Below, piece after piece: positions 4,449 through 33,938 of a stretch of 34,835 nt of DNA; the first letter of the stretch is position 1; each line of letters opens with the position of its first letter. The stretch covers positions 318 to 35,152 of the forward strand of contig MHDZ01000057.1 in NCBI GenBank assembly GCA_001805055.1, written 5' to 3'. The translations under genes and the position numbers were made by a program. The stretch is from Nitrospirae bacterium GWC2_57_13. GTDB lineage: Bacteria > Nitrospirota > UBA9217. Under the pieces are notes generated by a model that saw only the letters and a list, made by a program, of their open reading frames with translations, had not been told where the DNA came from and made no database searches.

Positions 4449-4455
4449 GAAGGGG

Positions 4456-4484
4456 ATGATACCGGAAAAGCGCCCCTCAGACAA
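4456..4484 (-). promoter_or_regulatory. Promoter of the response regulator
   Basis: On the minus strand TTGTCT (4484-4479) is followed after 17 bases by TATCAT (4461-4456). Seven bases then separate the -10 from the ATG at 4448, so the transcript would begin at the start codon. Confidence 0.6.
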
Positions 4485-4539
4485 CAGGAAAGGGGGTTCG
4501 CCAAAAGCGCTGATCCTGCCGATTCGCAACAGCAACTTT

Positions 4540-4568
4540 TTGAAAAAAGGCAAAAAAACGACTATAAT
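4540..4568 (+). promoter_or_regulatory. Promoter of the HEAT/HD-GYP/GGDEF operon
   Basis: TTGAAA (4540-4545) is followed after 17 bases by a perfect TATAAT (4563-4568). The ATG at 4575 is 6 bases downstream, so transcription would start on the initiation codon; no Shine-Dalgarno fits in between. It is a strong candidate for a leaderless mRNA. Confidence 0.75.
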
Positions 4569-4574
4569 AGAACC

Positions 4575-6848
4575 ATGGATGAGCAGGAAAAACCGGATCA
4601 GCCCCCTCCGGCCTCGACGGTCCCTCCGGCCCCGGCGGAACGGGAATTGCCGCTGGACGCCAGGCTGCTTTCCGACGCTGTTATCGAATTGAACATCTCT
4701 CGCAAGAACGTGGGCATCTATCCACCCGGACACATCCAGATCACCAAGAGCATTGATCGGGCCTTTGATTCGCTTCAGAAGATGTTCGAGGTGCGGGCCG
4801 AGATGACGCTGGGCGTTGCCAAGGACACGCTCCTGGTGGGCCAGGACTATCTGGACCGAAGGAACCCTGTATACCGCGATTTTGCGCTCTCCATGAACCA
4901 GCAGGGCATCGCTGCGGTGACGTTCATTCAGGGCCTCGTCAAGGACGAACTGGTAAAATTCCACCGCCTTCTCACGACAAAACCCGAGGACATCAGAAGC
5001 GAAGGCGGCATTCTGAACGTGACGGCGGGAGCAGATATCCCGCATATCAGGATCCAGGCCATCGACTACGGCCGTTTCCACGTGACCGAGGAGAAGGAGA
5101 TCCTGAAGCCGGCGCAGCGATCAGCTGAAAAACCAAGCGTCGGCGTATGGCAGGATTTCGTTTCCCACCTGGTGACAGGCAGTCTTGCCGGCGCTGGAGA
5201 GGGCGTGTCCATCGCGGACGCGGAGCAGTTCGATCCTGCGGAACTGGCTCGCCTTCTGAACGAGCGCAAGCTCGACCCGAATACCGCGATGGAGAGCTAT
5301 GACGAGATCATAACGACTCACGTGCGTGCGTCGACAGAGAAAAAGCGGCGCACCACCGCCCAGTCGGAAAGCCTGGCGAACCTGAACAGGCTCGTTAAGG
5401 AGCTGCATCCCGAGCTGCGAAAGCAGTTCCTGTCCGTGGCCTTTCGCCATGCTGCCTCTCAACCGTCGCAGGATGGAACAGAGGACCTGCTGGGAGGTAT
5501 GCCCGACGATATGATCATCGAGATGATCAGGAACGCCAGCGCAGCGGGGAAGGAGATCTCGCCCACCCTGGCCGGCATGATGCAGAAGCTTTCGCAGGTC
5601 AGGAGCACGGAGTTGCCCGGCCGGCAGTCCCGGCAGGCGCCGGAGCAGCCGGTCGGTGCAGCGCAGGTCATATCGCCGGAGCAGATGCAGACGCTTTTCG
5701 ATCGGGAGAGCTATGAAGATTATGTGACGCCTGATTACGATGCCACGCTCAAACGGCTGACGGAACACTCAGGCCAGTCGTCCGCTGGTCCTGTGGAGGG
5801 GATCTCACCGGATGAATTCTCCCCGTCCCTTGAGGATGATCATCTCGATTTCCAGATCGGTCGGGCGCTCCTTGCCTTTATGGAGGAAGAGCTCGATGAC
5901 GAGGACTACCTTGAGTTCTCGCGAAAGCTTATCGCTGTTGTTCCGGACCTGTTGGGATCAGGGAATTTCACGCTTCTTCTCGATGTTCTGGAGTCGCTCC
6001 GGCGGCATGTGCGTGAAAAGAAGAGCCCTGTTGTCCGGGCGCAAGCGGAAGAGTCCCTTGCCATTTTTCATGATCCGGCCTTTATTGCCCAGGCCGTCAA
6101 GTCCTTCGACGCTTGGGCCCGCACCAAGGGCAAGGAAGCGGCGGGCTTCCTGCTCTCCCTGGGGCCCGAAGCGGTTCCGGGGCTTCTCGACATCTATTCC
6201 GAGGACCAGACGCCGGGAGGGCGACGGATCCTCTTCGACCTGCTGTGCAATTTCGGGAAGCCGGCCGTACAGGAAGCCCAGCGCCGGCTCCACGATCCCC
6301 GGGCCTATTACGTCCGGAACCTGCTCATGTTGATCCGGTGGGCGGGAAATGCGACCGTTGTCGCGTCGGTGAAGCCGCTTCTGCGACATGCTGATGAAAA
6401 GGTCCGGCTCGAGACCCTGGCGGTGCTTCTTCGATTCAGGGACGCCGAGGCGATAGAGCTTCTCCGTCAGGCACTCCGGTCAAAGGATCCGGACGTTTCT
6501 TCCCAGGCCGTGTTCCTTGCGGGGCAGTATCGCGTGGCGGCCGTCATCGACGACCTGCTTGCGCTGATCAAGAAGGTGATCCTTTTCGAGGCCGATTATC
6601 GGGTGAACGAAGAGATCATCAAGGCGCTCGGTGAGATCGGCGACCGGCGAGCGGTGCCGGAGCTCGAGAAACTCGCCCGTGCTTCGTGGTCGCTGCATCG
6701 CGAGAGCCTGCAGCGGATGAAGGTGGTGCTGTATGATTCACTTGGCAGGTATCCGAAGGACGTTCTTGCGGGGCTGATCAGCATCGGGGAGCAGTCGGGA
6801 GATGATCGGATCATACGTGCCTGCAGAAAATTAGCGGAGAAGAGGTAG
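4575..6848 (+). CDS. HEAT-repeat protein with shared N-terminal domain (module 1)
   Basis: 757 residues, no signal peptide or membrane segment, presumably cytoplasmic. A Pro-rich start (7-22) leads into an N-terminal domain of about residues 27-180 carrying YPPGH (49-53) and a predicted beta-rich part ending near HIRIQAIDYG. A mostly helical middle has acidic stretches, and HEAT-like helical repeats run from about 480 to the end (for example PLLRHADEKVRLETLAVLLRF). The N-terminal domain appears related to those of the next gene and of both genes at 30455 and 32511. No catalytic motif is seen, so a scaffold or adaptor role for the adjacent HD-GYP protein is inferred. The start is ATG 4575 rather than upstream in-frame codons, because the TATAAT box lies just before it. 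Confidence 0.85.
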   Translation: MDEQEKPDQPPPASTVPPAPAERELPLDARLLSDAVIELNISRKNVGIYPPGHIQITKSIDRAFDSLQKMFEVRAEMTLGVAKDTLLVGQDYLDRRNPVYRDFALSMNQQGIAAVTFIQGLVKDELVKFHRLLTTKPEDIRSEGGILNVTAGADIPHIRIQAIDYGRFHVTEEKEILKPAQRSAEKPSVGVWQDFVSHLVTGSLAGAGEGVSIADAEQFDPAELARLLNERKLDPNTAMESYDEIITTHVRASTEKKRRTTAQSESLANLNRLVKELHPELRKQFLSVAFRHAASQPSQDGTEDLLGGMPDDMIIEMIRNASAAGKEISPTLAGMMQKLSQVRSTELPGRQSRQAPEQPVGAAQVISPEQMQTLFDRESYEDYVTPDYDATLKRLTEHSGQSSAGPVEGISPDEFSPSLEDDHLDFQIGRALLAFMEEELDDEDYLEFSRKLIAVVPDLLGSGNFTLLLDVLESLRRHVREKKSPVVRAQAEESLAIFHDPAFIAQAVKSFDAWARTKGKEAAGFLLSLGPEAVPGLLDIYSEDQTPGGRRILFDLLCNFGKPAVQEAQRRLHDPRAYYVRNLLMLIRWAGNATVVASVKPLLRHADEKVRLETLAVLLRFRDAEAIELLRQALRSKDPDVSSQAVFLAGQYRVAAVIDDLLALIKKVILFEADYRVNEEIIKALGEIGDRRAVPELEKLARASWSLHRESLQRMKVVLYDSLGRYPKDVLAGLISIGEQSGDDRIIRACRKLAEKR

Positions 6849-6850
6849 CT

Positions 6851-8008
6851 ATGCCCGATTCTACGACGGACAGGGATCTGCAGGAAGGCATCTCTCGCGT
6901 CATCGCGCAGCTCACGGCAGCGGTGACGAACACGGGGCTCTATTCCGCCGACCATCCGCAGGTTGCTCAGTACGCCGACAAGGCTTATGGTGTGCTGGAC
7001 GAGCTGCTCGCTCTGCGGCCAGAGATAACGGTCCTGCTGATCGGCGACGACCTGGTGGCGGACCAGAAGCCCCTGCCACCAGGGGCCTATGTGACCAATT
7101 TCGTCCGTATTATGAAGCGAAAAGCCATTGAACGCCTCACCTTTGTCGCAGGCCTTCCGAGGGCCGAGTTCGGCGCGCTGATCCACGATCTTGCCTCTCC
7201 CGATGCAGCGATGGTACGATCAACAGCTTTTATCAAGCTGGGAAAGGTCGAGCTCAGGGTCAAGACCGGCACAGATGCAGCTCAGCAGTCCGGGCCGGTG
7301 AGTGAGATCTCTCCTGAGGATTACGAAGCGCTGATCTCCCTTTCGGCCACCGAGTTGAACGAGTTGAAAGATCTTTATCTGAACATCAAAAAACACCGGA
7401 AGATCGATGTCAGGGGAGTTGATGAGATCGTCAAGTCCTTTGTCGCGAGCGTGCGGCAGGAGAGCAATCCTCTGAGCCTGCTGGCGTCCCTGAAATCGGC
7501 CCACGAATATACCTTCACCCATGTCACGAACGTGGGTATTCTCACCATGAGTCAGGCCGAGGCCCTTGGGTTCAAGGGCGAGCAGCTCCATCAGATCGGC
7601 ATTGCTTCGTTGCTTCATGACGTGGGAAAGCTCTTTGTTCCCGCTGAGATCCTGAACAAGCCGGGAAAGCTTACGCCTGAAGAGCGGAGTATCATCGAGA
7701 CCCATACGGTCAAGGGCGCGCGGTATCTCATGGGGCTCGACGGCATCCCGAAGGTCGCGGTGCTCGCGGCCATGGAACACCATATGAAATACGACGGCAC
7801 GGGCTACCCGACCCTCAAGGGTGGGTGGCGTCCGAACATCGTGAGCCAGATCATCGCCATATCCGATGTGTTCGACGCCATGCGCAGCAGGCGTTCCTAC
7901 CAGGAGCCCTTCACGATCGAGAAGATTGCCGAGGTGCTGAAGAACGGGAGCGGGAAGTCCTTCAATCCCGCATTGGTGGACCATTTTTTAAAACTGATCC
8001 GGCGGTAA
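6851..8008 (+). CDS. HD-GYP domain phosphodiesterase (module 1)
   Basis: 385 residues, probably a soluble c-di-GMP phosphodiesterase. The N-terminal domain (about 10-140) carries YSADHP at 31-36 and resembles that of the upstream HEAT protein. The HD-GYP domain (about 205-380) has H256-D257 in LLHDVGK, a HTVKGARYL segment, EHH and DGTGYP at 315-320, so the metal ligands and GYP signature are present. The ATG is 2 bases after the previous stop and has GAGGT upstream, indicating translational coupling. It forms one operon with the HEAT protein and the GGDEF gene, which gives a turnover pair for c-di-GMP in one transcript. Activity is inferred from motifs only. Confidence 0.92.
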   Translation: MPDSTTDRDLQEGISRVIAQLTAAVTNTGLYSADHPQVAQYADKAYGVLDELLALRPEITVLLIGDDLVADQKPLPPGAYVTNFVRIMKRKAIERLTFVAGLPRAEFGALIHDLASPDAAMVRSTAFIKLGKVELRVKTGTDAAQQSGPVSEISPEDYEALISLSATELNELKDLYLNIKKHRKIDVRGVDEIVKSFVASVRQESNPLSLLASLKSAHEYTFTHVTNVGILTMSQAEALGFKGEQLHQIGIASLLHDVGKLFVPAEILNKPGKLTPEERSIIETHTVKGARYLMGLDGIPKVAVLAAMEHHMKYDGTGYPTLKGGWRPNIVSQIIAISDVFDAMRSRRSYQEPFTIEKIAEVLKNGSGKSFNPALVDHFLKLIRR

Positions 8009-20730: not shown

Positions 20731-21637
20731 TCTCTCCGTCGAGTTCGCAGGGATCAAGCTCAAGAATCCGGTGCTCACCGCGTCAGGCACCTTCGGCTAC
20801 GGTGAGGAATATGCCGAGTTCGTGGACCTGAACAAGCTCGGCGGCGTGATCGTGAAGGGCATTTCGCTCAAGCCCCTTTCAGGCAATCCTCCCCCGCGGA
20901 TATGGGAGACGCCGTCGGGGATGCTGAATGCCATCGGCCTCGAGAACCCCGGCGTAGATGTGTTCCTGCGCAACAAACTACCTTTCCTTCGACAGTTCGA
21001 TACAAAGGTGATCGTCAATATTTTCGGTTACACTGTGGAAGAATATGCGGCCCTGGCCGAACGGCTTGACGATGCCGAGGGCATTGCCGGCCTCGAAGTG
21101 AACATATCCTGCCCGAACGTGAAGGCCGGAGGCATGGTCTTCGGCACTGATCCGGCAACGACCCATGAGCTTCTCACCGCAGTGCGGAGCAGGACAAAGC
21201 TGCCGATCTTTGCAAAGCTTTCGCCGAATGTTACGGATGTGACGGCCTTTGCGCGGGTGGCCCGTGATGCGGGTTGTGACGGATTGTCGCTCATCAATAC
21301 GCTTCTGGGCATGGCCATAGATGTACGCACGGGCCGACCCCGGCTTGCGAACTGCACCGGCGGCTTGTCAGGCCCGGCTATCCGGCCTGTGGCGGTACGG
21401 ATGGTCTGGCAGACGGCGAAATGCGTTCCGCTGCCGATCATTGGTATGGGAGGGATCGTAACTGCCGAAGACGCGCTGGAGTTCATCATTGCAGGCGCTT
21501 CGGCGGTTGCCGTGGGTACGGCGAACTTCCTGAATCCACGGGCCACGCTCGACGTGCTTTCGGGAATCGAGGAATTCCTTGCCCTGCGGGGTGTGAAGCG
21601 GCTTGATGATCTCAAAGGGACGGTGAATACCACGTGA
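20687..21637 (+). CDS. pyrD: Dihydroorotate dehydrogenase B catalytic subunit
   Basis: About 316 residues, class 1B FMN enzyme oxidising dihydroorotate to orotate together with PyrK. ASGTFGYGEEY, LEVNISCPNVKAGG with the class 1B catalytic Cys, KLSPNVTD and IGMGGI are present. The start is uncertain: GTG 20654, ATG 20687 and ATG 20717 are in frame. 20687 lies right after the leader ORF stop, and 20717 gives the length nearest to the conserved domain (DLSVEFAGIKLKNPV). The heptad tract obscures the true start. The stop overlaps the GTG of the next gene by 4 bases. Confidence 0.96.
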   Translation: MPEVRDQKSAMGSPDLSVEFAGIKLKNPVLTASGTFGYGEEYAEFVDLNKLGGVIVKGISLKPLSGNPPPRIWETPSGMLNAIGLENPGVDVFLRNKLPFLRQFDTKVIVNIFGYTVEEYAALAERLDDAEGIAGLEVNISCPNVKAGGMVFGTDPATTHELLTAVRSRTKLPIFAKLSPNVTDVTAFARVARDAGCDGLSLINTLLGMAIDVRTGRPRLANCTGGLSGPAIRPVAVRMVWQTAKCVPLPIIGMGGIVTAEDALEFIIAGASAVAVGTANFLNPRATLDVLSGIEEFLALRGVKRLDDLKGTVNTT

Positions 21638-23115
21638 GGATCGTTTCCAGCCTCAAGAGCAAGATCATCATCTCCGTGTCAGCGATCCTTGCTGTCACCA
21701 TCGGCGCCGGGACCTGGATCAATATCGGGTACCAGCGGTCCCAGATGGAGAATGCCCTTGAGGACAACGTGCTGATCATCTCGAACACGATCGAGCGCAG
21801 CCTGTCTAACGCCATGCTCGAAGGCAAGAGCAAGGAAGTGCAGCGCATTCTTGAAGCCGTAGGCGGATATCATAATATCCAGGAGTTGAAGATCTTTACG
21901 CCCAACGGCGTGATCCTGAAATCGTCAAAAAAATGGATGATCGGCCGCAAAGTGGACCCTGGCACGCAGAAGTGGTTCCTGGAAGGGAAATTCCGGAAGC
22001 CTATAAAACGCCGGAGCGACGGGGTCTTTTCCGTTCTGTTTCCCATCGAGAACGCGGCGGCCTGTACGCGCTGCCACGGGACCAAGGTGAAGCTGAACGG
22101 CGTGCTTGCCGTCCATGTCTCGATGGCGCAGCTCCAGGAGAAAGTAGGGGAACTGAGCAAGACCATGTTCCTCTGGGCCTTCGGCATCACGGCTGTGCTT
22201 GCCATATCACTCTCCACTTTTCTGACCCATTTCGTGACCAACCCGATCCAGGACCTGATCAAGACCATGGAGCGCGCCGAGAAGGGCCTGGAAGCCCGCG
22301 TGAACGTGAGGAGCACCGACGACATCGGGCGGCTCGGGGAGGCCTTTAATTCGCTTCTCTCGAAGCTTGAACGTGCGCGCCGCAAGGTGGAGCGCTATCA
22401 TTATGAGCAGATGAAGCGCGCCGATCGGCTGGCCTCGATCGGTGAAATGGCTGCCGGCATCGCTCATGAGATCAAGAACCCCCTGGCCGGCATCGCCGGC
22501 GTGATCCAGGTGCTGAAGAAAGACATGCTTACCACTGACCAGCGGCGGCCGGTCCTTGAAGAAGTCCTCTCGCAGGTGGAACGGATGGACAAGGCAGTGC
22601 GGAACCTGCTGTCCTTTGCCCGGCCGCCGGAGCCGAATATGACCATGGTGGACGTCAACGAGCTGATCGGGAGGCTGCTGGATTTCCTCGCCCCGCAGTT
22701 CGCGAAGCACACTATCACGGCGGAGCGGAGGCTCACTGCAGGCATGCCCTGGCTTTCCCTCGATCCCGACCTGTTACAGCAGGCTTTTTTGAACATCGCC
22801 CTGAACGCGATCCAGGCCATGAAGGATGGCGGGAAGTTCTTCGTCGAAACGCGGTATGACGAAGCCTCGAGTACGGCCCCGGGAGCAGTGAAGATCATAT
22901 TCACCGATACGGGCAAGGGGATCTCGGCGGAGAATATGAGCCGGATCTTTGGGCCTTTCTTCACGACGCGCCAACAGGGCACGGGCCTGGGCCTGACGAT
23001 CACGCAAAGGATCATTGAGCAGCACAGCGGCGAGATAAGCGTAACCAATGCTGCGACGAAAGGCGCCAGTTTCACGATCTCGCTGCCTTACCCGCAGTCG
23101 GAAGCAACCGCATAG
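21634..23115 (+). CDS. Sensor histidine kinase with a CXXCH haem motif in its periplasmic domain
   Basis: 493 residues from GTG 21634, overlapping the pyrD stop by 4 bases. Membrane segments at about 10-30 and 178-198 enclose a periplasmic domain with a c-type haem site, C144-T-R-C147-H148. A HAMP domain follows (from about 199), then a coiled coil and the H-box AHEIKNPLAG with phospho-accepting H278. The ATPase has N-box LNAIQAM, DTGKGI, FGPFFTT and GTGLGLTI. A covalently bound haem suggests sensing of redox state, oxygen or a haem ligand. The partner is almost certainly the NtrC-type regulator that follows at 12 bases. Haem attachment is inferred from the motif and its periplasmic location. 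Confidence 0.93.
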   Translation: MRIVSSLKSKIIISVSAILAVTIGAGTWINIGYQRSQMENALEDNVLIISNTIERSLSNAMLEGKSKEVQRILEAVGGYHNIQELKIFTPNGVILKSSKKWMIGRKVDPGTQKWFLEGKFRKPIKRRSDGVFSVLFPIENAAACTRCHGTKVKLNGVLAVHVSMAQLQEKVGELSKTMFLWAFGITAVLAISLSTFLTHFVTNPIQDLIKTMERAEKGLEARVNVRSTDDIGRLGEAFNSLLSKLERARRKVERYHYEQMKRADRLASIGEMAAGIAHEIKNPLAGIAGVIQVLKKDMLTTDQRRPVLEEVLSQVERMDKAVRNLLSFARPPEPNMTMVDVNELIGRLLDFLAPQFAKHTITAERRLTAGMPWLSLDPDLLQQAFLNIALNAIQAMKDGGKFFVETRYDEASSTAPGAVKIIFTDTGKGISAENMSRIFGPFFTTRQQGTGLGLTITQRIIEQHSGEISVTNAATKGASFTISLPYPQSEATA

Positions 23116-23127
23116 GAGACCTGCGTC

Positions 23128-24501
23128 ATGCCCCAGAAGATACTTGTGATCGACGATGAGAAGCTGATACGGTGGACCCTCGAGCAGCACCTCGTGAAGG
23201 AGGGATACGAGGTGGCCACGGCGGAGTCGGCCGAAAGAGGAATGGACTTGATCGCCGATGACGCTCCCGATCTGATCCTTCTTGATAACCGGCTGCCGGA
23301 CATGAGCGGCCTCGAAATGCTTGAGAAAGTGAAGGTCCGGGACCGGGGTCTCATGGTCATCATGATCACTGCCTACGGGATGGTCGAAGCGGCGGTGAAG
23401 GCCATGAAGCTCGGCGCCTATGATTACGTCAGTAAACCCTTCAACCTTGAGGAGATCACCTTCGTCATCAAGAAGGCCCTTGAAGCGGGATCGCTCCGGA
23501 CGCAGGTGAAGCAGCTGCGTCAGGAATGCAAGGCGAAGGTCGGCACGCTCATCGGCGAGTGCGTCGAAATGGAGAAGGTGAAGGACCTGATCCTGAAGAT
23601 CGCCCGGAGCGACGCCACCACGGTCCTGATCCAGGGAGATAGCGGCACCGGCAAGGAACTGGTGGCCAAGGCGATCCACGCAGCCAGCGCCCGCGTCGAC
23701 AAGCCCTTTCATGCCATGAACTGCGCTGCCGTGCCCGAAACGCTGCTCGAGAGCGAGCTCATGGGCCATGAGAAGGGTGCTTTTACCGATGCCAAATCTG
23801 CCAAAAAGGGCCTCTTTGAGCTTGCTGACAGCGGGACGCTCTTTCTCGACGAGATCGGAGATATGGACCTGAGCATGCAGGCCAAATTGTTGCGAATCCT
23901 GGAAGAGAAGACGTTCAAACGGGTTGGCGGGGTGAAGGACATCAAGGTCGATGTGCGCGTCATCTCAGCCTCGAACCAGGATCTATTGAAGTCAATGAGC
24001 GATGGGACCTTCCGCAAGGACCTCTTTTACCGGCTCCAGGTCGTTCCTGTCATGCTGCCTCCGCTGCGGGAACGCGGCAGTGATATTCTGCTGCTGGCGA
24101 ACTATTTTATCGATCACTTCAACAGGGAGTGCCACAAAAGCGTTAGCGGCATATCGAAAGAGGCCGAGGACGTGCTCCTGTCCTATTCGTGGCCCGGGAA
24201 CGTCCGGGAACTCAAGAACGTGATAGAGCGGGCCATGATCCTTGAGGTGCAGGACGAATTGCTCGTCGAACATCTTCCGCAGGAGTTGCTGGAGGAAAAG
24301 GAAACGTCGGCTTCGGGCATACCGGTATCGCTCGACGGGTTCGTGATACCGGACCAGGGTATCTCTATCGAAGACGTTGAGCACGCCCTTGTCCGTAAAG
24401 CACTTGAAATCGCCGCCGGCAACCAGACCAAGGCGGCTTCGCTTCTCAAAATGCCCCGCGATGCTTTCCGGCGGAGGATGAAGCGGTTCGGTATTATCTA
24501 A
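23128..24501 (+). CDS. Sigma-54-dependent NtrC-family response regulator
   Basis: 457 residues. The receiver (1-120) has D9-D10, phospho-acceptor D53 and Lys in VSKPF. The AAA+ domain (about 145-385) has Walker A GDSGTGK (170-176), a GAFTDA loop (217-222, where GAFTGA is usual) that contacts sigma-54, Walker B LFLDE ending at D241-E242, and an Arg-finger region FRKDLFYRL. The C-terminal Fis-type helix-turn-helix is NQTKAASLLKMPRDAFRRR. The ATG has GGAG upstream and follows the kinase gene by 12 bases. A sigma-54 promoter lies 180 bases downstream, so the multihaem cytochrome genes are the likely target. Phe-Thr, the essential part of the contact loop, is kept despite the Gly to Asp change. 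Confidence 0.96.
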   Translation: MPQKILVIDDEKLIRWTLEQHLVKEGYEVATAESAERGMDLIADDAPDLILLDNRLPDMSGLEMLEKVKVRDRGLMVIMITAYGMVEAAVKAMKLGAYDYVSKPFNLEEITFVIKKALEAGSLRTQVKQLRQECKAKVGTLIGECVEMEKVKDLILKIARSDATTVLIQGDSGTGKELVAKAIHAASARVDKPFHAMNCAAVPETLLESELMGHEKGAFTDAKSAKKGLFELADSGTLFLDEIGDMDLSMQAKLLRILEEKTFKRVGGVKDIKVDVRVISASNQDLLKSMSDGTFRKDLFYRLQVVPVMLPPLRERGSDILLLANYFIDHFNRECHKSVSGISKEAEDVLLSYSWPGNVRELKNVIERAMILEVQDELLVEHLPQELLEEKETSASGIPVSLDGFVIPDQGISIEDVEHALVRKALEIAAGNQTKAASLLKMPRDAFRRRMKRFGII

Positions 24502-24680: not shown

Positions 24681-24696
24681 AGGCACGTTACTTGCA
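24681..24696 (+). promoter_or_regulatory. Sigma-54 (-24/-12) promoter of the cytochrome genes
   Basis: AGGCACG, four bases, then TTGCA matches the consensus TGGCACR-N4-TTGCW at all fixed positions except the first. GG lies at 24682-24683 and GC at 24694-24695. Transcription would start near 24707, giving a leader of about 48 bases to the first cytochrome. It sits directly behind the gene for a sigma-54 activator. Confidence 0.85.
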
Positions 24697-24754
24697 AAAG
24701 TGATGCAACTACAACTAACTGTGATTGATAACTGTAAGGAGCGAGGTGAAATCC

Positions 24755-26086
24755 GTGTTCGTTCGTTGGAGCTTTGGAGGCATTCTGATAGCCGCACTGA
24801 TCGGCAGCATCGCATCGTACAGTATGCCTGCGCAGGCAGGAACAGACTCCTGTGTGGCGGGCAAATGCCACTCCACGATGGGAAAGGCAAAGGCAGTCCA
24901 TCCTCCGGTGAAGGACGGAATGTGCACGGCCTGTCATGCGGTGAGCGAGACAAAGGGCAAATCCTCGAAGCATCCGGGAGGCCTTACGATCACGCTTGTT
25001 CAGCAGGGAGCCGATCTGTGCACCATGTGCCACGAAGCGAAGAATACCAAAAAAGTGGTTCACGCGCCCATCATGGGCGGAGATTGCACGGGTTGCCACA
25101 ATCCGCACCAGTCCCCGAACAAGGGAATGCTGCGCGAACCTGCGCCGAAGCTCTGTTTTCAGTGCCACGCAGATACGGCGTTCAAGAGCGCTGTTCTACA
25201 CCCGCCCGTTGCTTCCGGCGATTGTTCAACCTGCCACGATAATCACCAGAGCGATTTTTCCCAGCGGCTTGTGATGGACCGCAGCCGACTCTGTTTCATG
25301 TGCCATTCGGACAAGGAAGAAGCACTGAAGAAGAAAAAGGTCGTTCATGCACCAGTCAAGCAGTCCTGCGTCAAATGCCACGATCCTCACGGGTCCCCCA
25401 ATGCGACCCTCCTGACGTCCACGGTGCCGACGCTCTGCGCTGCCTGCCATCCGAACGAGGTGCAGTCCGGCCAGAAGTCCTTCTCGAAGCACGCACCGAC
25501 AAATGAAGGGAAGCGCTGCCTGACCTGTCATGACGCGCATGCGTCGGATCACCGCAAACTGCTGCCGCAGCCGCAGATGGAACTTTGTCTGGGCTGCCAC
25601 GATCGGGAGATCAAAGCCGCGTCAAGCACCATCAGGGACATGAAGGGGTTCCTGCAGAAGAACAAGGTCGGCCACGGACCGTTGAAGGACAAGAACTGCT
25701 CGGCATGCCATGATCCGCATGGTTCCGACTACTGGCGACTTATGGAGAAATACTATACCTCGGAGTTTTACGCTTCCTATGCTGATGGCAGATACGCATT
25801 GTGTTTCAGCTGTCACGCAAGCGCAGCGTTCACGGAGATGACGACGAAGGCTGAGACGAAATTCCGGGACGGAAGCAGAAACCTGCATTTTGTGCACGTC
25901 AATAAAAAGCAGAAGGGCAGGACATGCAAGACCTGTCACGAAGTCCATGCAGACACCGGTCAGCCCCGGCATATCAAAGATATGGTGCGGTTCAGCGGAT
26001 GGGAAATGCCGATGAATTTCATCCCGACCCGAAGCGGCGGATCCTGTGCGCCGGGATGCCACGGCGAGAAAAAATATTCAAGATAG
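24755..26086 (+). CDS. Exported multihaem c-type cytochrome, 13 CXXCH plus two variant sites
   Basis: 443 residues from GTG 24755, chosen because GAGGTGA lies five bases upstream; GTG 24746 and TTG 24725 are alternatives. A signal peptide (cleavage after about A28) precedes repeated paired-CXXCH units. Thirteen canonical CXXCH motifs are present (CTACH, CTMCH, CTGCH and so on). The first Cys pair, C33-VAGK-CH, is a CX4CH site and the last, C431-APG-CH at 431-436, is CX3CH. If all carry haem the protein binds about 15 haems in 415 residues, consistent with a periplasmic or outer-surface electron conduit. Many extra His (VHAP, HPPV) could be distal ligands. It is the first gene behind the sigma-54 promoter. 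Confidence 0.95.
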   Translation: MFVRWSFGGILIAALIGSIASYSMPAQAGTDSCVAGKCHSTMGKAKAVHPPVKDGMCTACHAVSETKGKSSKHPGGLTITLVQQGADLCTMCHEAKNTKKVVHAPIMGGDCTGCHNPHQSPNKGMLREPAPKLCFQCHADTAFKSAVLHPPVASGDCSTCHDNHQSDFSQRLVMDRSRLCFMCHSDKEEALKKKKVVHAPVKQSCVKCHDPHGSPNATLLTSTVPTLCAACHPNEVQSGQKSFSKHAPTNEGKRCLTCHDAHASDHRKLLPQPQMELCLGCHDREIKAASSTIRDMKGFLQKNKVGHGPLKDKNCSACHDPHGSDYWRLMEKYYTSEFYASYADGRYALCFSCHASAAFTEMTTKAETKFRDGSRNLHFVHVNKKQKGRTCKTCHEVHADTGQPRHIKDMVRFSGWEMPMNFIPTRSGGSCAPGCHGEKKYSR

Positions 26087-26193: not shown

Positions 26194-27975
26194 TTGAGGC
26201 ATCGAATGTTCACCTTGTTCAGAACCGTGATCGCTGTCTGCGTGATGGCGGTCGGAACGGCCGTTGCCGCAGATGCGCCTGCTGTCACGATACATTATCC
26301 CGTGGACAGGTCCGTTGTCGGGAACAAGGTGAATTTCGTCCTGGATTTCGCAACGGACTGGAGCGCGGTTCCTTTTTTTCAGGTCCTGGCGGGGAAGCGT
26401 GAGTATCCTGTCGTGGAGACCTCGTCGGGAAGGCACGCGATGCAGGGAATTGCGCTCGAACCGGGAGTGAACACGCTCACGCTCAGGCTGTTCGCATACA
26501 AGGACGCAGCACGAAAGAAGGGTATGGAGCTTGTCTCCACGCGGGAGATAACCATCTATAGCGATGTCCCTGTCTTTTCGGGTAACGCGATCCCCGAGGG
26601 ATTCACCGTACGTCCCTTCCATACCCGGGGCCAGGAGAAGGACTGTTCGGGATGCCATCGCATGGATGTGGAGCCCGCAGACCTGAAGCCGGTACAGCCG
26701 GCGGATATGATCTGTTATACCTGCCACAAGAGCATTCCCACGGGCAAGCATATCCATGGTCCTGCTGCGGTGTGGGGATGCATCTCCTGCCACGATCCCG
26801 ACGAAGGCCCTGTCAAGTATCGTTTTGCGGATCGGTCCCCCTGGAAGATCACGCGTACCACGCAGCCCGTGGAGCCGCTGGTGTTCACGATCCCCTCGGA
26901 CGGGGTGTTCAACTCCTCGTCATCGTCGCTGGCCATAAGGCGGAAGCAGTTGAAGGATCTGCTGGCAGAGCCGCTTTCAGCGCTTCGAAGGCACCGAGCG
27001 TACAGCATGTTCCTGGAAGTACATACTGACGGCGCACCCATCAGGAACCCCCGCTATAAGGACCATCGTCAACTCGCCAAGTCGCGGGCCCGGGTCCTTT
27101 CCACGCTTCTTGTTCAGTTCGGTGTGTCCAAGGCGAAGATCTCGGTGGTTGGTGTGGGAAGATCGAGCCCCCGGGCAGGTGAACAGGGCAGTGGCGATAG
27201 TAATCGCATTGTTATCGTTCTGCATCCAGCCGGTACGGAGGTGAAGAGCAGCGAGAAGCTTCCGTCGATGAAGGGCTGGGAGCGCCAGGTCGTGCAGATC
27301 ACCTACGCGAACGGACCCGCCGTCTCCGGCCTGACAGTACGGGAAGCACTTCCGTCACACGTGCAGTACGTCAGGGACACAGGTACAGTACAAGGCAGGT
27401 TCAGGAATCCGCGCATAAATAAAAGCGCGCTGATCTGGAACCTTGGCGGCCGCAAGGGGAACTTTGAAGAGACGATCGCGTATGTGGTGAGGAGAACGGG
27501 CACCTCCTCCAAGGCTCCACCGGAGACGGCCATCTCCTACACGCAGCAGGACGGCGTGATCGTCAACTATGCTCCTTTTGAGAAGGGGAAAAAGCGGCGG
27601 ACGGTGGCGGAGACCTGCCTCTCGTGTCACCAAGGGATGCTTGACGGCGCTTTCAGGCATGGTCCGACCGAGGCGGGTTATTGCAATCTTTGCCATGACC
27701 CGCACGCAAGTCCGAACCCCGCATGGCTCAGGAAACCCGCCTGGGACCTGTGCGTCACCTGCCATGCCGAGATGGCCGAGGGAAAGCACGTGGTGGCGGG
27801 GTTCGTTTCCGGAAAAACCCATCCAACGAAAGGCCGAAGTGATCCCGCTCGCCCCGGCAGGGAGTTGTCCTGCGCCAGCTGTCACAATGCTCACAGCGGT
27901 AAGAGCCGCTCGCTTTTTGTGTACGGTGTCAAGGAGCGGCACGATCTGTGCGTCCAGTGTCACAAGAATTTTTGA
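26194..27975 (+). CDS. Multihaem cytochrome fused to OmpA-like and DUF11-like domains
   Basis: 593 residues from TTG 26194 behind GGGAGGA; ATG 26206 is an alternative start. Order: signal peptide (to about 26); beta-sandwich-like region (30-145); three CXXCH (C151, C174, C196); an OmpA/MotB peptidoglycan-binding domain (about 235-348) with LEVHTDGAP, SRARVLSTLLVQFGV and NRIVIVLHP; a DUF11-like repeat domain (about 360-440) with TYANGPAVSGLTVREALP; five CXXCH (C475, C497, C520, C560, C586). Eight haems are expected. The OmpA part would tether it to the cell wall in the periplasm or at the outer membrane. It follows the first cytochrome by 107 bases and probably shares its sigma-54 transcript. 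The fusion looks unusual. Confidence 0.93.
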   Translation: MRHRMFTLFRTVIAVCVMAVGTAVAADAPAVTIHYPVDRSVVGNKVNFVLDFATDWSAVPFFQVLAGKREYPVVETSSGRHAMQGIALEPGVNTLTLRLFAYKDAARKKGMELVSTREITIYSDVPVFSGNAIPEGFTVRPFHTRGQEKDCSGCHRMDVEPADLKPVQPADMICYTCHKSIPTGKHIHGPAAVWGCISCHDPDEGPVKYRFADRSPWKITRTTQPVEPLVFTIPSDGVFNSSSSSLAIRRKQLKDLLAEPLSALRRHRAYSMFLEVHTDGAPIRNPRYKDHRQLAKSRARVLSTLLVQFGVSKAKISVVGVGRSSPRAGEQGSGDSNRIVIVLHPAGTEVKSSEKLPSMKGWERQVVQITYANGPAVSGLTVREALPSHVQYVRDTGTVQGRFRNPRINKSALIWNLGGRKGNFEETIAYVVRRTGTSSKAPPETAISYTQQDGVIVNYAPFEKGKKRRTVAETCLSCHQGMLDGAFRHGPTEAGYCNLCHDPHASPNPAWLRKPAWDLCVTCHAEMAEGKHVVAGFVSGKTHPTKGRSDPARPGRELSCASCHNAHSGKSRSLFVYGVKERHDLCVQCHKNF

Positions 27976-28102: not shown

Positions 28103-29110
28103 ATGAAAGTACTTGCCATTCTGCCTTTCCTTGCGGCCCTGTTCAGCGGTTGCGCGGTCATTACGGGAGAGGACTCCACGCTCTCCCGGGAGCAAGCCGC
28201 AGGACCGCGGCTGGCTTTCGAAGAGACCCTGAAAAGCAGCGAGAGCCTTCAAGGACAAGGCCTGCGGGAAAATGTGCGTCCGGCAGTTTTCGCGCAGTCG
28301 CTCCAGCGGCCCGTGGCCGTTTATGCCGATGCATTCCGGGTCTATGTGACCGATGAGTATCATCTTTCATCATCCCAGTCAGCGCGGGTCTTCATCTTTG
28401 ACCGGGGCGACCGCAGCCTGACCATTCTGGGTGATGGCGTACCGGCTGCCGATGCCGTCAAACTGCTCGCGCCGTCAGGCATCGTCGTGGATGCCGCAGG
28501 TGTTGTGTTCGTAGCCGATGCTCAGCAGGGGAGGGTGTTCGGATATGACCGGAACGGCGCACTGCTGATGGAGTTCGGCAAGCGGGGGGAGCTCGGCTCT
28601 CCAGCGGGCCTCGCCATCGACCGGGACCGGAACCTGCTGTACGTTGCTGATTCTCATGCCCGGCTGGTGAAGGTGTTCACGACAATGGGAACGCCGGTGC
28701 TCGAGATCGGCGCAGCAGGGGAGCATCGTTTATCTGGAGCTGCGGCCCTTTCCCTTGACGGGGCCGGAAATGTATATGTGCTCGACGACCGTTCCCGGAA
28801 GGTGCGGGTCTACGACCGCGAGGGCGCGCATCTGAGGGAATTCAGCATAGCAGGGGAACAACCGGGAACGTCCCTGCAGCCGAGGGGCATTGCCGTTGAT
28901 TCTGTCGGGCGCGTCTACGTGTCTGACGCGGTCGCGAGTTCGGTGCGGATCTTTGACGCCAGCGGAGCCTTCATCCGCACCTGGGGAAGATCAGGCGTGC
29001 TGGCAGGAGAGTTCCTGAGGCCCCTCGGGATATTTATCGACAGGAATGATACCATCTATGTTGTCGACCAGTCCAATGGACGTGTTCAGGTATTCCGTTC
29101 GTTCCCCTGA
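28103..29110 (+). CDS. NHL-repeat beta-propeller lipoprotein 1
   Basis: About 335 residues from ATG 28103, with AGGGAG upstream. The frame is open further up, but that region holds the promoter. The lipoprotein signal peptide ends in LFSGC. NHL repeats then fill the rest of the protein (for example PSGIVVDAAGVVFVADAQQGRVFGYD and three to four more of the pattern GIA-D-G-YV-D), consistent with a six-bladed propeller. Such proteins are common beside multihaem cytochromes in metal-reducing bacteria, probably as a binding scaffold in the outer membrane. No catalytic residues are recognised. The next gene is a paralogue 25 bases downstream. Confidence 0.9.
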   Translation: MKVLAILPFLAALFSGCAVITGEDSTLSREQAAGPRLAFEETLKSSESLQGQGLRENVRPAVFAQSLQRPVAVYADAFRVYVTDEYHLSSSQSARVFIFDRGDRSLTILGDGVPAADAVKLLAPSGIVVDAAGVVFVADAQQGRVFGYDRNGALLMEFGKRGELGSPAGLAIDRDRNLLYVADSHARLVKVFTTMGTPVLEIGAAGEHRLSGAAALSLDGAGNVYVLDDRSRKVRVYDREGAHLREFSIAGEQPGTSLQPRGIAVDSVGRVYVSDAVASSVRIFDASGAFIRTWGRSGVLAGEFLRPLGIFIDRNDTIYVVDQSNGRVQVFRSFP

Positions 29111-29135: not shown

Positions 29136-30131
29136 ATGCGCCTCGCATCGTACGCGCTGATGCTCCTTGCCGCATGCCTGCTTTCCGCCTGCGGACCCGC
29201 GAAGCGACCTGCCGAGCCGGACAACCTTTTCTGGCCCCTTCCTCCTGATCCACCGAAGATAAAATATATCCAGTCCATCTATTCGGAAGACGATATCGGC
29301 CGGGTCTACTCCTTCATGGAAAAGCTGTTCGGCAAGGACTATCACGACAGCCTTGTACGACCCTACGGCGTGTTCGCCCGGACGGGGGCGATGGCCGTGG
29401 CCGATGTGACCCTCCGAAGGGTGCTGCTCTTTGACCTGACGTCGAAGCGGCTCACGATTGTCGGTGACGACGGAACGCTCAGGATTCCTTCTGCCGTTGT
29501 TATCGACAGCAGCGGCAGGATCTATGTGGCCGACGGACCTGGAGGCAAGGTCGCGTTGTATGATGCTTCCGGTCGATATCTGACAGCGTTCTTAATGAAA
29601 GACAGCCGGCCCATTGCGCTGGCCCTGAACGAGCAGGCTGGAAAGCTTTATGTTATCGACGGGGATGGGCACCGTATTCTCGTCTTCGGGCTCGATGGCC
29701 GCCGGATAGCCGTTATCGGCAAAGCCGGGAGAGGGGCAGGCGAGTTCAATTTTCCGATCGATATCGCGATTGACCGGTCCGGCCTCCTGTATGTCCTCGA
29801 CGCCCGGAATTTCCGGGTGCAGATCCTTGAGGAGGACGGTAGTTATCTCAGGTCCTTCGGCTCTGCAGGCGACGTCCCCGGTTCTTTTGCGAACCCGAAG
29901 GGGATCGCTCTGGACTCCAAGGGCCATATCTATGTGACCGACGCCGCCTACAGCAATTTTCAGATCTTCGACTCCACAGGAAATATCCTTCTCTTTGTCG
30001 GCTCCCTTGGGCCCCGGCCTGGCGAGTTGCACTTGCCAGCAGGCATATCGATCGATGAACAGGACCGCATCTATGTTGCCGACCAGCTGAACGGTCGCGT
30101 CCAGATTTTTCAGTATCTCGACAGCCAATAG
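29136..30131 (+). CDS. NHL-repeat beta-propeller lipoprotein 2
   Basis: About 331 residues from ATG 29136 (GTG 29133 is equally possible), 25 bases after the previous stop. The signal peptide has lipobox LLSAC. A short N-terminal region with PPDPPKIKYIQSIYSE is followed by NHL repeats (PSAVVIDSSGRIYVADG, PIDIAIDRSGLLYVLDA, PKGIALDSKGHIYVTDA, PAGISIDEQDRIYVADQ). Its end, NGRVQIF, matches the end of the preceding protein, so the two arose by duplication. Probably an outer-membrane-anchored propeller; its partner is unknown, with the upstream cytochromes the natural candidates. The ribosome binding site is weak (AGCGG). Confidence 0.9.
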   Translation: MRLASYALMLLAACLLSACGPAKRPAEPDNLFWPLPPDPPKIKYIQSIYSEDDIGRVYSFMEKLFGKDYHDSLVRPYGVFARTGAMAVADVTLRRVLLFDLTSKRLTIVGDDGTLRIPSAVVIDSSGRIYVADGPGGKVALYDASGRYLTAFLMKDSRPIALALNEQAGKLYVIDGDGHRILVFGLDGRRIAVIGKAGRGAGEFNFPIDIAIDRSGLLYVLDARNFRVQILEEDGSYLRSFGSAGDVPGSFANPKGIALDSKGHIYVTDAAYSNFQIFDSTGNILLFVGSLGPRPGELHLPAGISIDEQDRIYVADQLNGRVQIFQYLDSQ

Positions 30132-30454: not shown

Positions 30455-32521
30455 ATGCTGGAAGCGAAACAACCTGCTGATGCCGCGCCCTCCGAAGTAC
30501 AAGAAATTGCAAGGGATATTCTTGCTGCTCTGCGCGCAGTGAAGCTCTATCCGGAAAACAACCCCGTTCATTCCCAGACCATAGCGAGAACTTTCAAGGT
30601 TCTGAATCAGTACCTGGACCGGCAGCCTGAATACCATCTCGGCCTGCAGAAGGCGGGTTTTATTTCCCGTGCCGGCCGGATCACGCTCGGCCCGCACCTC
30701 TCCAAGGGCGTGGCCGCGGACCTCTTTGCGAAAGGCGTCAGGGAGATTGCCTTTACGCGGGGTCTTACAGAGTCTGAATTGCGGGATTTTCTGACGGTCT
30801 CCGCTATGCAGTCCGACGAGTTGAAGCAGCAGGGAGGCATTGCGCCGATCCTCTGGGGAAAAGGGGTAGTCCATGTCCGGATCAGGGAGGCAGCGCTCGA
30901 TGAGCGGCCTCCTCTAGACGGTCCTGCAGGGACAACGCCTGCTGATGAGATGACTGCAGGCCTTGCAGGAGAGCTGGGTGCCTTGGAAGGCTCGTTGGTC
31001 AGCGTTTTCGGTCTGACAATCGGGCTTGCAGAACTCGCCGCAGACCCTGCATCGTTCGGGAAACAGGCTGTAGGGATCAGTGCTGGTGAAGGCCTGTCCC
31101 GTCAGGAGCAGGATGACAGGCTGCTCGAAGTATACCGGCAGGTGGGACAGCAGGTCCTGAAGAAGTCCTATGAATTGCGCGGCCCGGTCTTTTCCGCCCT
31201 TGCCAGTTCGATCCTCTCCATGGACGCGGACCAGAGCTCCCGGCTTGTTGCAGAAAGGCTCTACCCCGAGGCTGACGCTCTCCTGTTGAACGGGAATGCG
31301 CAGAATCTTGCCGAGCGTCTTCCTCATGATCTGCATGAACTCATTTCTTCCCGGTTTTCACGCTCCTGGACAGCGCCGCAGGTCTCGTCGCTCCTTGAAA
31401 AAATCTGTTCCGCTGAGGACGGCGTCAAGTCTACAGGTCCAGCCGGCGTCCCGCTGCCTGCGGGCCTGGCTGAGGCGGTAAGGGAATTGGCGGAGTATAC
31501 GCCCGGAGAGCTCGAAACGCTCAGGACGATCTGCGAATCAGGGGAAGAACGGGACTCACTTGTGGCAGCGTCCGGGGTCCTGATGCACCTGCTGCAGTCT
31601 GTTCAGGATGGAACACGAAAGGAATCGCAGCAGGATTCCCTCAGCTCTTTTTCGAATATGGTCAGCCAGCTTGAGGATGCCCACGATCGTCTCGTTGCAG
31701 TGAATGACTATGCTGCGGCCGGGCAGATCCTTCGGGCCTTCAGATCCGCATCTGTTCCCCTGTACCGCCAGCGGCTCGGCGAGGCTATCATGAGGTCCGC
31801 TGAACGGCGACGCATCGAGACGCTCATCGCCCGTCTGCGCGGACTTGCGCCGGGCGCCGCAGATGCGGGCGTATATCTCGCCTACCTTTCCATCCTCGAC
31901 CGGCAGGCCACGCCGGTACTGCTCGAAATGCTGTCTGCAGAAGAGGACAGGACCATGCGTCGGCTGCTGGTCCAGATACTGAAGGACCTGGGCAGGAACC
32001 AGATCGCATTCCTGGGACAAAAACTGTCAGATGAGCGATGGTACTTCGTGCGCAATATTGTGAGCATCCTCGGGGAGAGCCATCGCGAGGAAGCTGTAAC
32101 CTATCTTGCCGGCGTCGCACGGCACAAAAACTTTCAGATCCGCCAGGAAGTAGTCCGCGCGCTGACCACCATCGGCGGCGGAAAAGCCGCAGAACTGCTG
32201 GTCCAGTTCCTTGCCGACAGGGACATCGACATCCGGTTCATGGCGATCCGTGGACTCGGTACTCTGGCGTCGCCGAGCGCCAGGGGGGAGCAGGCACTGA
32301 TCGATTTTTTGAAGCGTAGGGCTTGGTCGCGCAAGGGGGATTTCGAACTGCGTTTGGAAGCGATAGGATCACTCGGCCGTATGGGCGGAACGGCTGCGCA
32401 GACTGTGCTTGGGAAGCTCGCGCGGCGGACGTGGTGGCGCTCGGGCAGGCAAAATCGGGAGATCAGTGCCGAGGCCGCACGGGCGTTGGCTGAACTTGAG
32501 CGGAGGACCCATGGCGCTTGA
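30455..32521 (+). CDS. HEAT-repeat protein with shared N-terminal domain (module 2)
   Basis: 688 residues, soluble. The N-terminal domain (about 13-150) has YPENNP at 32-37 and shares the layout of the 4575 gene, including GLTESELRDFL and HVRIREA at the same relative places. A long helical middle of unrecognised fold follows. HEAT-like repeats from about residue 450 include VLLEMLSAEEDRTMRRLLVQILKDLG, KNFQIRQEVVRALTTIG and DIDIRFMAIRGLGTL. No catalytic motif is present. It overlaps the following HD-GYP gene by 11 bases, so both products are made together. A role as partner or scaffold of that protein is inferred, as for module 1. Confidence 0.85.
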   Translation: MLEAKQPADAAPSEVQEIARDILAALRAVKLYPENNPVHSQTIARTFKVLNQYLDRQPEYHLGLQKAGFISRAGRITLGPHLSKGVAADLFAKGVREIAFTRGLTESELRDFLTVSAMQSDELKQQGGIAPILWGKGVVHVRIREAALDERPPLDGPAGTTPADEMTAGLAGELGALEGSLVSVFGLTIGLAELAADPASFGKQAVGISAGEGLSRQEQDDRLLEVYRQVGQQVLKKSYELRGPVFSALASSILSMDADQSSRLVAERLYPEADALLLNGNAQNLAERLPHDLHELISSRFSRSWTAPQVSSLLEKICSAEDGVKSTGPAGVPLPAGLAEAVRELAEYTPGELETLRTICESGEERDSLVAASGVLMHLLQSVQDGTRKESQQDSLSSFSNMVSQLEDAHDRLVAVNDYAAAGQILRAFRSASVPLYRQRLGEAIMRSAERRRIETLIARLRGLAPGAADAGVYLAYLSILDRQATPVLLEMLSAEEDRTMRRLLVQILKDLGRNQIAFLGQKLSDERWYFVRNIVSILGESHREEAVTYLAGVARHKNFQIRQEVVRALTTIGGGKAAELLVQFLADRDIDIRFMAIRGLGTLASPSARGEQALIDFLKRRAWSRKGDFELRLEAIGSLGRMGGTAAQTVLGKLARRTWWRSGRQNREISAEAARALAELERRTHGA

Positions 32522-33938
32522 AGATCAGGTCACCCAGCGCGCCGAGACCAGGCTTTCCTTTTTTCTGCAGCAGCAGGTAGTACAGAAGGCGAAACTCGCG
32601 TTCCTGCGCTTCATGGCGCTGCTCAAAAATGCGTCTCTTTACCCGCCTGCCCACCCGTTCCTTCTGGGATCGGCCGAGCAACTTCTGGTCAGCCTGGAAG
32701 AGCTTTTTTCCGACCGGAACGAGGCCTCTTTCCATTTTGTTTCCGGAGAGCTGTTTTTCGGCGCCCTCTCGGTGCAAATAGAGGAAGTATTCTCCCAGGG
32801 CATTGAAGAGTTCGTACAACGCGACATCGGCGGTTTCACGTATCGGAAGGGACTGGAGCGGCAGGAAATCATTGCTTTGGCCTATCTTCTGCAGAAGGCG
32901 CCGGGGGCCGCTTCCGGGGACCTGCGGGAGCAGATCCAGGGGGCGGGGATCACCCACGTTACGGTCCTGCCGGTGCCTCCTCGGAGAGATCGGAAGAACA
33001 GAGCAGGCGATGGAACGGAACGTTCCGCCCGCGAGCTCTATCAGGACGGGATTGAGACCGTGAAGGACCTGATCCAGTCAGCCCAGCACGGCAAGATGCC
33101 GAACACGCGGCAAGTCCAGATGCTGGTACAGGGCATGGCGGACAGCATTATGGGCAACAGAGACGCCCTGCTCGGCCTGACAACCTTGAAACTCTATGAT
33201 GAATATACCTTCGCCCATTCCGTCAACGTATCCATCCTTTCACTGGCCATGGGGACATATCTCTCCTTTGACCGCCCTCAGGTCGCTTCGCTCGGAGTGG
33301 CCGGGCTCCTGCACGATATAGGAAAGGTAAACGTTCCCGTCGAGATCATCAACAAACCGGACGGCCTTGCCGATGCTGAATGGGACATCGTGAAGCGCCA
33401 CCCCGTGGAGGGGGCGAGGATCCTCTCGGGTATGCCGGGCATAACGCGGCTCGCCATGGTGGCGGCCTTCGATCATCACCGGCAGTATGATCTGAAGGGA
33501 TATCCGCACCAGTCACCGGGGGCGCAGCCTCTCCCGCATCCCTATTCCCGCATCGTTGCCATCGCAGACGCCTATGACGCCATCACCTCGGCGCGCGTCT
33601 ATTTTCGCATGATAACTCCTCCTTACGAAGCGGTGCGGCTGCTGCTTACCAAGCGGGGCACTATTTTCGATCCCGTCCTGGTCAAGGCATTCGTCAACAT
33701 GGTCGGAATATTCCCGATCGGCACGCTGCTTCGGCTGACTACGGGCGAGATCGCGCTGGTGGTTCGCCAGACCAGGGACCTGCTGCGCCCCAGCGTTCTC
33801 CTGCTCACGACCTTTGACGGAACAGAGACCGAGGAGGTCAGTTTGCTTGAGACACGGTCCGGTGCCTACGGCAGGAGTGCAGTAGCCACCATCGCACCTC
33901 AGGATGCGAATATCGATCTGGTGCGATATTTCCAGTAG
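32511..33938 (+). CDS. HD-GYP domain phosphodiesterase (module 2)
   Basis: 475 residues from ATG 32511, with GGAGG close upstream and the start inside the end of the HEAT gene. The N-terminal domain (about 25-160) has YPPAHP at 44-49 and ends near ITHVTVLP. The HD-GYP domain (about 245-415) has H268-D269 in LLHDIGK, RHPVEGARIL, DHHRQYD and KGYP, with G330-Y331-P332. The metal-site residues appear intact, so c-di-GMP hydrolysis is expected. A C-terminal extension of about 60 residues (from GTLLRLTTGEIALVV) is beta-rich and is common in HD-GYP proteins. Unlike module 1, no GGDEF gene follows. Confidence 0.92.
   Translation: MALEDQVTQRAETRLSFFLQQQVVQKAKLAFLRFMALLKNASLYPPAHPFLLGSAEQLLVSLEELFSDRNEASFHFVSGELFFGALSVQIEEVFSQGIEEFVQRDIGGFTYRKGLERQEIIALAYLLQKAPGAASGDLREQIQGAGITHVTVLPVPPRRDRKNRAGDGTERSARELYQDGIETVKDLIQSAQHGKMPNTRQVQMLVQGMADSIMGNRDALLGLTTLKLYDEYTFAHSVNVSILSLAMGTYLSFDRPQVASLGVAGLLHDIGKVNVPVEIINKPDGLADAEWDIVKRHPVEGARILSGMPGITRLAMVAAFDHHRQYDLKGYPHQSPGAQPLPHPYSRIVAIADAYDAITSARVYFRMITPPYEAVRLLLTKRGTIFDPVLVKAFVNMVGIFPIGTLLRLTTGEIALVVRQTRDLLRPSVLLLTTFDGTETEEVSLLETRSGAYGRSAVATIAPQDANIDLVRYFQ

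Follow-up and report, generated by a model that had tools for sequence, protein, structure and literature searches.

An octahaem c-type cytochrome of one Nitrospirota family whose haem motifs 3 and 4 are separated by an inserted OmpA/MotB-type domain

The window analysed here, a stretch of 34,835 nucleotides from contig MHDZ01000057.1 of Nitrospirae bacterium GWC2_57_13, encodes an octahaem c-type cytochrome of 593 residues (26194..27975, forward strand) in which an OmpA/MotB-type peptidoglycan-binding domain and a DUF11-like domain are inserted between haems 3 and 4. The assignment is based on the frame, Pfam matches and orthologues. An octahaem family member with a wall-binding module gained internally in one lineage is an architecture new to the open literature searched; no multihaem cytochrome fused to an OmpA or other peptidoglycan-binding domain was found described in open-access articles, although subscription papers may hold one. 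Judged from sequence, the protein is on balance best read as an octahaem electron carrier, soluble in the periplasm and part of an extracellular-electron-transfer module, which the captured OmpA-DUF11 pair would tether to peptidoglycan.

The reading frame is a single intact one without internal stops, and its domains follow in the order signal peptide, Ig-like domain, three CXXCH motifs, OmpA domain, DUF11-like domain and five CXXCH motifs. A preliminary description of the window had reported three and five motifs around an OmpA/DUF11-like block within one intact frame, and all eight are found in this arrangement between 26194 and 27975; the N-terminal Ig-like domain, the operon and the insertion-free homologues described below are additions to it. 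Translation could begin at a TTG codon (26194, with GGGAGG 4 nt upstream) or at an ATG codon (26206), both of which have a plausible ribosome-binding site and retain the signal peptide. The latter (MRHRM...GTAVA/AD; 26194..26268, +) reads as a type I Sec signal without a lipobox and resembles the N-termini of the orthologues. As the protein has neither a lipobox nor any membrane segment beyond this signal, the OmpA domain is its sole apparent anchor.

Structures were predicted using AlphaFold in runs with 18 and with 17 homologues, and folds were compared using Foldseek. With 18 homologues the prediction was confident for the Ig-like domain (residues ~28-123) and for the OmpA and DUF11-like block (residues ~216-450). 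The OmpA-type fold was recovered in this way; the haem regions were poorly predicted in both runs, with pLDDT mostly below 60. The first domain (26275..26562, +) is an Ig-like or FnIII-like beta-sandwich with pLDDT of ~76-94, and the corresponding domain of an insertion-free homologue returned FnIII, SoxY and glucodextranase Ig-like modules as Foldseek matches.

The OmpA/MotB-type domain (26869..27231, +) is matched by PF00691 over residues 239-334 with 29.7 bits against a gathering cut-off of 27.2 (E 8e-7), so that the presence of an OmpA domain, as proposed in the preliminary description, has a significant profile match behind it. The same profile was matched in all seven orthologues scanned (E <= 0.01), and profile comparison with the PDB gave E ~1e-13. 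The domain is predicted with pLDDT of ~80-96 over most of its length, and among solved structures its nearest relatives include MotB, OprF and OmpA; the best Foldseek hit was the periplasmic domain of Helicobacter pylori MotB (E ~1e-7), followed by OmpA (E ~1e-5) and OprF. In the OmpA-type fold, one aspartate and one arginine contact meso-diaminopimelate, and we take D279 and R298 to be their counterparts in the window protein. Asp279 (27028..27030, +), within an HTD motif, aligns with the conserved HTD/TDD aspartate of OprF and MotB, and Arg298 (27085..27087, +), within LAKSRA, aligns with the LSxxRA arginine of the same proteins, where it would be expected to contact the diaminopimelate carboxylate. 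The pair on which peptidoglycan contact was expected to depend is thus present and in register with MotB and OprF.

Both residues are retained in six of the eight orthologues; alanine replaces the aspartate in one (L040/L054) and glutamine the arginine in another (L038/L053). Because one or the other is gone in these two, anchoring is possibly not universal in the clade, and some of its members may bind peptidoglycan weakly or no longer at all. The OmpA-DUF11 core is only about 30% identical between the orthologues and the window protein, and in several orthologues it is preceded by a lysine- and glutamate-rich segment of variable length. MotB, OmpA, OprF, Pal and TssL have the fold, the Pfam family and the Asp and Arg of the diaminopimelate site in common with the window domain; unlike in these proteins, however, the domain here lies inside a multihaem cytochrome without a transmembrane segment, barrel or lipid anchor. 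Identity as a MotB stator protein was rejected on architecture, since a signal peptide and an Ig-like domain take the place of the N-terminal transmembrane and plug region, and no motA-like gene was seen among the neighbouring proteins scanned. The type VI secretion protein TssL, though among the best domain matches, was likewise rejected on architecture.

The second inserted domain (27271..27573, +) is a beta-sandwich whose earlier description as DUF11-like has indirect support. PF01345 scores 14.6 bits on the window protein, below its cut-off of 24.6, but when the orthologues were used to build a profile of this segment, the profile matched (conditional E 3e-9) part of another protein, encoded at locus L134, that Pfam itself scores as DUF11 with 45.9 bits. 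The predicted model has pLDDT mostly of 82-92 up to residue ~430 and of 70-76 thereafter. Foldseek matches to diphtheria toxin and AP2-mu were taken as generic beta-sandwich similarity.

The haem motifs lie at 26644-26658, 26713-26727 and 26779-26793 (motifs 1-3) and at 27616-27630, 27682-27696, 27751-27765, 27871-27885 and 27949-27963 (motifs 4-8), all on the forward strand, corresponding to residues 151, 174 and 196 and then 475, 497, 520, 560 and 586; Pfam returns a strong Paired_CXXCH_1 match. In an alignment of 18 homologues with and without the insertion, all eight CXXCH motifs are invariant, as are seven further histidines (window residues 143, 188, 489, 504, 532, 543 and 567) that are candidate distal ligands. 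With eight motifs and seven such histidines, one haem ligand is unaccounted for, and it may be a residue of a partner, a residue other than histidine or an open site. The distance between haems 3 and 4 is 279-321 residues in proteins with the insertion and 22-23 in those without, whereas the other spacings agree to within a few residues in both groups, apart from a longer gap between haems 1 and 2 in three homologues. Since the haem core is unchanged, a continuous haem chain from which the insert loops out is tentatively favoured over two separated chains.

The insertion-free homologues were gathered by a scan of the sequence collection and by genome searches, and occur in other Nitrospirota families and on contigs labelled Desulfuromonas, Deltaproteobacteria and Campylobacterota. 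No experimental name was found for this family. Its members (L049, L059-L070, L083 and others) share with the window protein the N-terminal beta-sandwich, the eight CXXCH motifs in near-identical spacing and the seven distal histidines, and their gene lies directly or closely downstream of a 13-haem cytochrome gene, as in the window. On motif number, spacing, distal histidines and the adjacent 13-haem gene, the window protein belongs to this family of 13-haem partners. They differ in having no OmpA-DUF11 block between haems 3 and 4 and, usually, in having genes for TPR and/or TlpA-like thioredoxin proteins as neighbours.

The inserted block measures 250-300 residues. The proteins that carry it are monophyletic in a haem-core tree, with support of 100/100, and a single change accounts for their distribution. 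Of 296 genomes sampled in the phylum, only eight, all of one family, contain the OmpA-DUF11 core at full length (at least 300 bits), and the next-best match reaches 84 bits. The split haem arrangement, which had been thought uncommon, is in this sample confined to one family. A search of 117 genomes of a Desulfuromonad order at E <= 1e-20, run without a positive control, did not detect the core. The 84-bit match is the L134 protein (G240:C165), a frame of 2564 residues with Pfam-level DUF11, regulatory-like domains and an OmpA domain that has a DUF11-like segment immediately after it. This tandem of an unrelated giant envelope protein is colinear with the cytochrome insertion, which suggests capture en bloc; the simplest account of these sequences is that an existing pair was captured once, between haems 3 and 4, in the ancestor of the family. 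A member of the window's family (G001:C6) also holds a divergent, insertion-free octahaem-like frame.

The inserted octahaem protein is present in eight genomes of the window's Nitrospirota family, labelled as Nitrospirae or Nitrospiria MAGs, and is split over two contigs in one. The orthologues show 37-45% overall identity. Their gene is the second in a conserved order of 13-haem cytochrome, inserted octahaem and two NHL-repeat proteins, although one locus lacks one of the NHL genes. In the window, the periplasmic 13-haem cytochrome (24746..26086, +; likely GTG start at 24746) is related to DmsE/MtrA and GSU2203, with scores below the cut-offs of those families, and the NHL-repeat beta-propellers are lipoproteins with LFSGC (28103..29110, +) and LLSAC (29136..30131, +) lipoboxes, the start of the second being judged from its lipoprotein signal. 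The operon of the window contains neither a porin gene nor an OmcE-like gene.

Upstream of the 13-haem gene lies a sigma-54 -24/-12 promoter, AGGCACGttacTTGCA (24681..24696, +), of the form GG-N10-GC, which agrees with the consensus at 11 of 12 positions. Good matches are found upstream at seven of the eight family loci and also in a second family. It is preceded in the window by an NtrC-type sigma-54 response regulator identified by Pfam (23128..24501, +) and by a sensor histidine kinase (21634..23115, +) with one periplasmic CXXCH in an Mcp40H-20-type sensor domain (PF21563, HAMP, HisKA and HATPase all above cut-off). This single-CXXCH kinase, which adjoins the regulator and the conserved promoter, probably controls the octahaem operon as a c-haem sensor of redox state or of a ligand. 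Upstream regulators elsewhere comprise a kinase and NtrC at L040 and NtrC at L038, with different genes at several other loci.

Pairing with a 13-haem gene is conserved whether or not the octahaem carries the insertion. In the majority of clusters that lack it, the 13-haem gene comes first and is separated from the octahaem gene by TPR and/or TlpA-like genes, which are absent from the insertion family. L049, L059, L060 and L070 then carry parts of a set made up of a haem-sensor kinase, NtrC and NHL proteins, joined at three of these loci by a tetrahaem cytochrome; that of L060 shows homology to OmcE along its length (7tfs, E 1.5e-27). The L059 cluster includes, by reading, a PpiC-like protein, and at L072, a Nitrospira locus, genes for 16- and 26-haem proteins lie beside a 12-haem, TlpA and octahaem set. 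Directly upstream of the 13-haem gene at L049 (2504-4066) and L059 (319-1830) is a peptidoglycan amidase with AMIN and Amidase_3 domains (by Pfam for L049), a possible further link to the cell wall in these two insertion-free clusters.

These observations can be assembled into a proposed mechanism. Within an extracellular-electron-transfer module under sigma-54 control, the octahaem protein would work with a 13-haem MtrA/DmsE-like cytochrome as its regular partner. In the ancestor of one Nitrospirota family it gained an OmpA-DUF11 pair between haems 3 and 4, and the OmpA domain of this pair would bind diaminopimelate-type peptidoglycan through Asp279 and Arg298 and so tether the haem chain to the wall. 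Quinol oxidoreductases of the inner membrane could then deliver electrons to a wall-fixed octahaem relay, which would hand them on to the 13-haem protein and to a conduit or cytochrome filament of the outer membrane, or receive them from there, without free diffusion. The wall anchor put forward in the preliminary description is plausible on this footing; that the cytochrome, fixed in Gram-negative peptidoglycan by an internal OmpA/MotB domain, serves as a stationary mid-periplasm relay and not as a diffusing shuttle is a more tentative proposal, which we put at a little short of probable.

Alternatively, the OmpA-DUF11 pair could be a docking or oligomerisation module that places the octahaem on the NHL lipoproteins or on the 13-haem cytochrome, with residual affinity for peptidoglycan. 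The loss of Asp or Arg in two of eight orthologues, the variable charged segment before the OmpA core, and the two NHL lipoproteins that adjoin the gene in the insertion family, where the TPR and TlpA genes are missing, would all suit such a role. We nevertheless consider it unlikely, given that both residues persist in the other six orthologues despite core identities of ~30% to the window protein, that the fold is closest to the peptidoglycan-binding MotB and OmpA domains, and that NHL genes are found near insertion-free octahaems too. It is slightly less likely still that the insertion divides the protein into three-haem and five-haem modules that cross the periplasm by tethered diffusion, wall binding being secondary. 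The 279-321 residues between haems 3 and 4, including two folded domains, would permit this, and tethered haem domains are documented for Geobacter PgcA (PMC11520253); on the other hand, flexible linkers of the (PT)n type are lacking, and spacings, distal histidines and core motifs match those of the insertion-free protein, in which haems 3 and 4 are adjacent.

A periplasmic redox enzyme, wall-anchored for stability and with the haem that lacks a protein distal ligand as its active site, would account for the eight CXXCH motifs against only seven invariant candidate histidines in 18 homologues, but seems improbable: neither CXXCK nor another active-site signature of known octahaem reductases is seen, the missing ligand may be a residue other than histidine or be supplied by a partner, as in OmcS/OmcE polymers (PMC12307469), and the constant 13-haem pairing suggests electron transport. 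An artefact of gene prediction or assembly, or an accidental fusion in one MAG, might be imagined for a draft of 105 contigs, but is scarcely credible because the same architecture recurs in eight family genomes and the frame has no internal stops.

The tethered electron carrier that we favour can be set beside several known systems. Crossing of the periplasm in Gram-negative electroactive bacteria is usually ascribed to small diffusing cytochromes such as PpcA-E (PMC12307469). Thermincola CwcA, as far as the available part of its description goes (PMC7911101), is likewise a multihaem cytochrome proposed to sit in peptidoglycan, but differs in its Gram-positive wall and its hexahaem OmcS-like polymer model, and no OmpA domain is reported there. 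PgcA resembles the window protein in that haem groups of one polypeptide lie far apart, and differs in its monohaem domains, its flexible (PT)n linkers and the lack of a folded wall-binding domain (PMC11520253); identity with a PgcA-type protein was rejected, as the window protein has no such linkers and its multihaem clusters flank folded domains. An OmcE/OmcS-type filament protein was also rejected, with only the last ~40 residues matching OmcE (7tfs, E 0.02). The nearest described neighbourhoods, as judged from parts of two reports, are the operons with beta-propeller, 16/26-haem and PPIase genes and the OetABI conduit of syntrophic sulphate reducers (PMC5539420, PMC10553843). In these and in MtrA/DmsE conduits six-bladed propellers are found beside large cytochromes, as in the window; the same portions describe no OmpA-cytochrome fusion, and the window operon differs in having no porin.

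Related organisms with comparable operons provide a matched natural pair, one octahaem that carries the wall-binding module and one that lacks it, so that an anchored relay and a free shuttle could be compared experimentally with two proteins that differ in one module. Were binding shown, such a wall-clamped electron relay would be a novelty, and the inserted octahaem would also provide a model from nature for attaching electron carriers to the wall.

Further redox genes are found in the window's genome. OmcE-like tetrahaem genes are present on other contigs, and an MtrB/PioB-like porin gene lies beside that of a 9-haem protein. At L153 (G000:C45:7408-16084), an OmcE-like tetrahaem gene is followed by those of a 954-residue NHL/FG-GAP/BACON protein and a 1714-residue frame with 29 CXXCH motifs. 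A second 13-haem paralogue, 39% identical, is encoded at L159 (1645-2973; G000:C97) with no adjacent octahaem gene. At L154 (12331-14139; G000:C77), a 603-residue, 11-haem frame that matches OmcE-type tetrahaems adjoins an NHL lipoprotein, and is a possible multi-domain filament cytochrome. Within the window itself, genes for a HEAT-repeat protein and then an HD-domain (HD_5) protein lie both upstream (4308-8008) and downstream (30455-33938), and the two similar pairs that flank the region are possibly a duplicated signalling pair.
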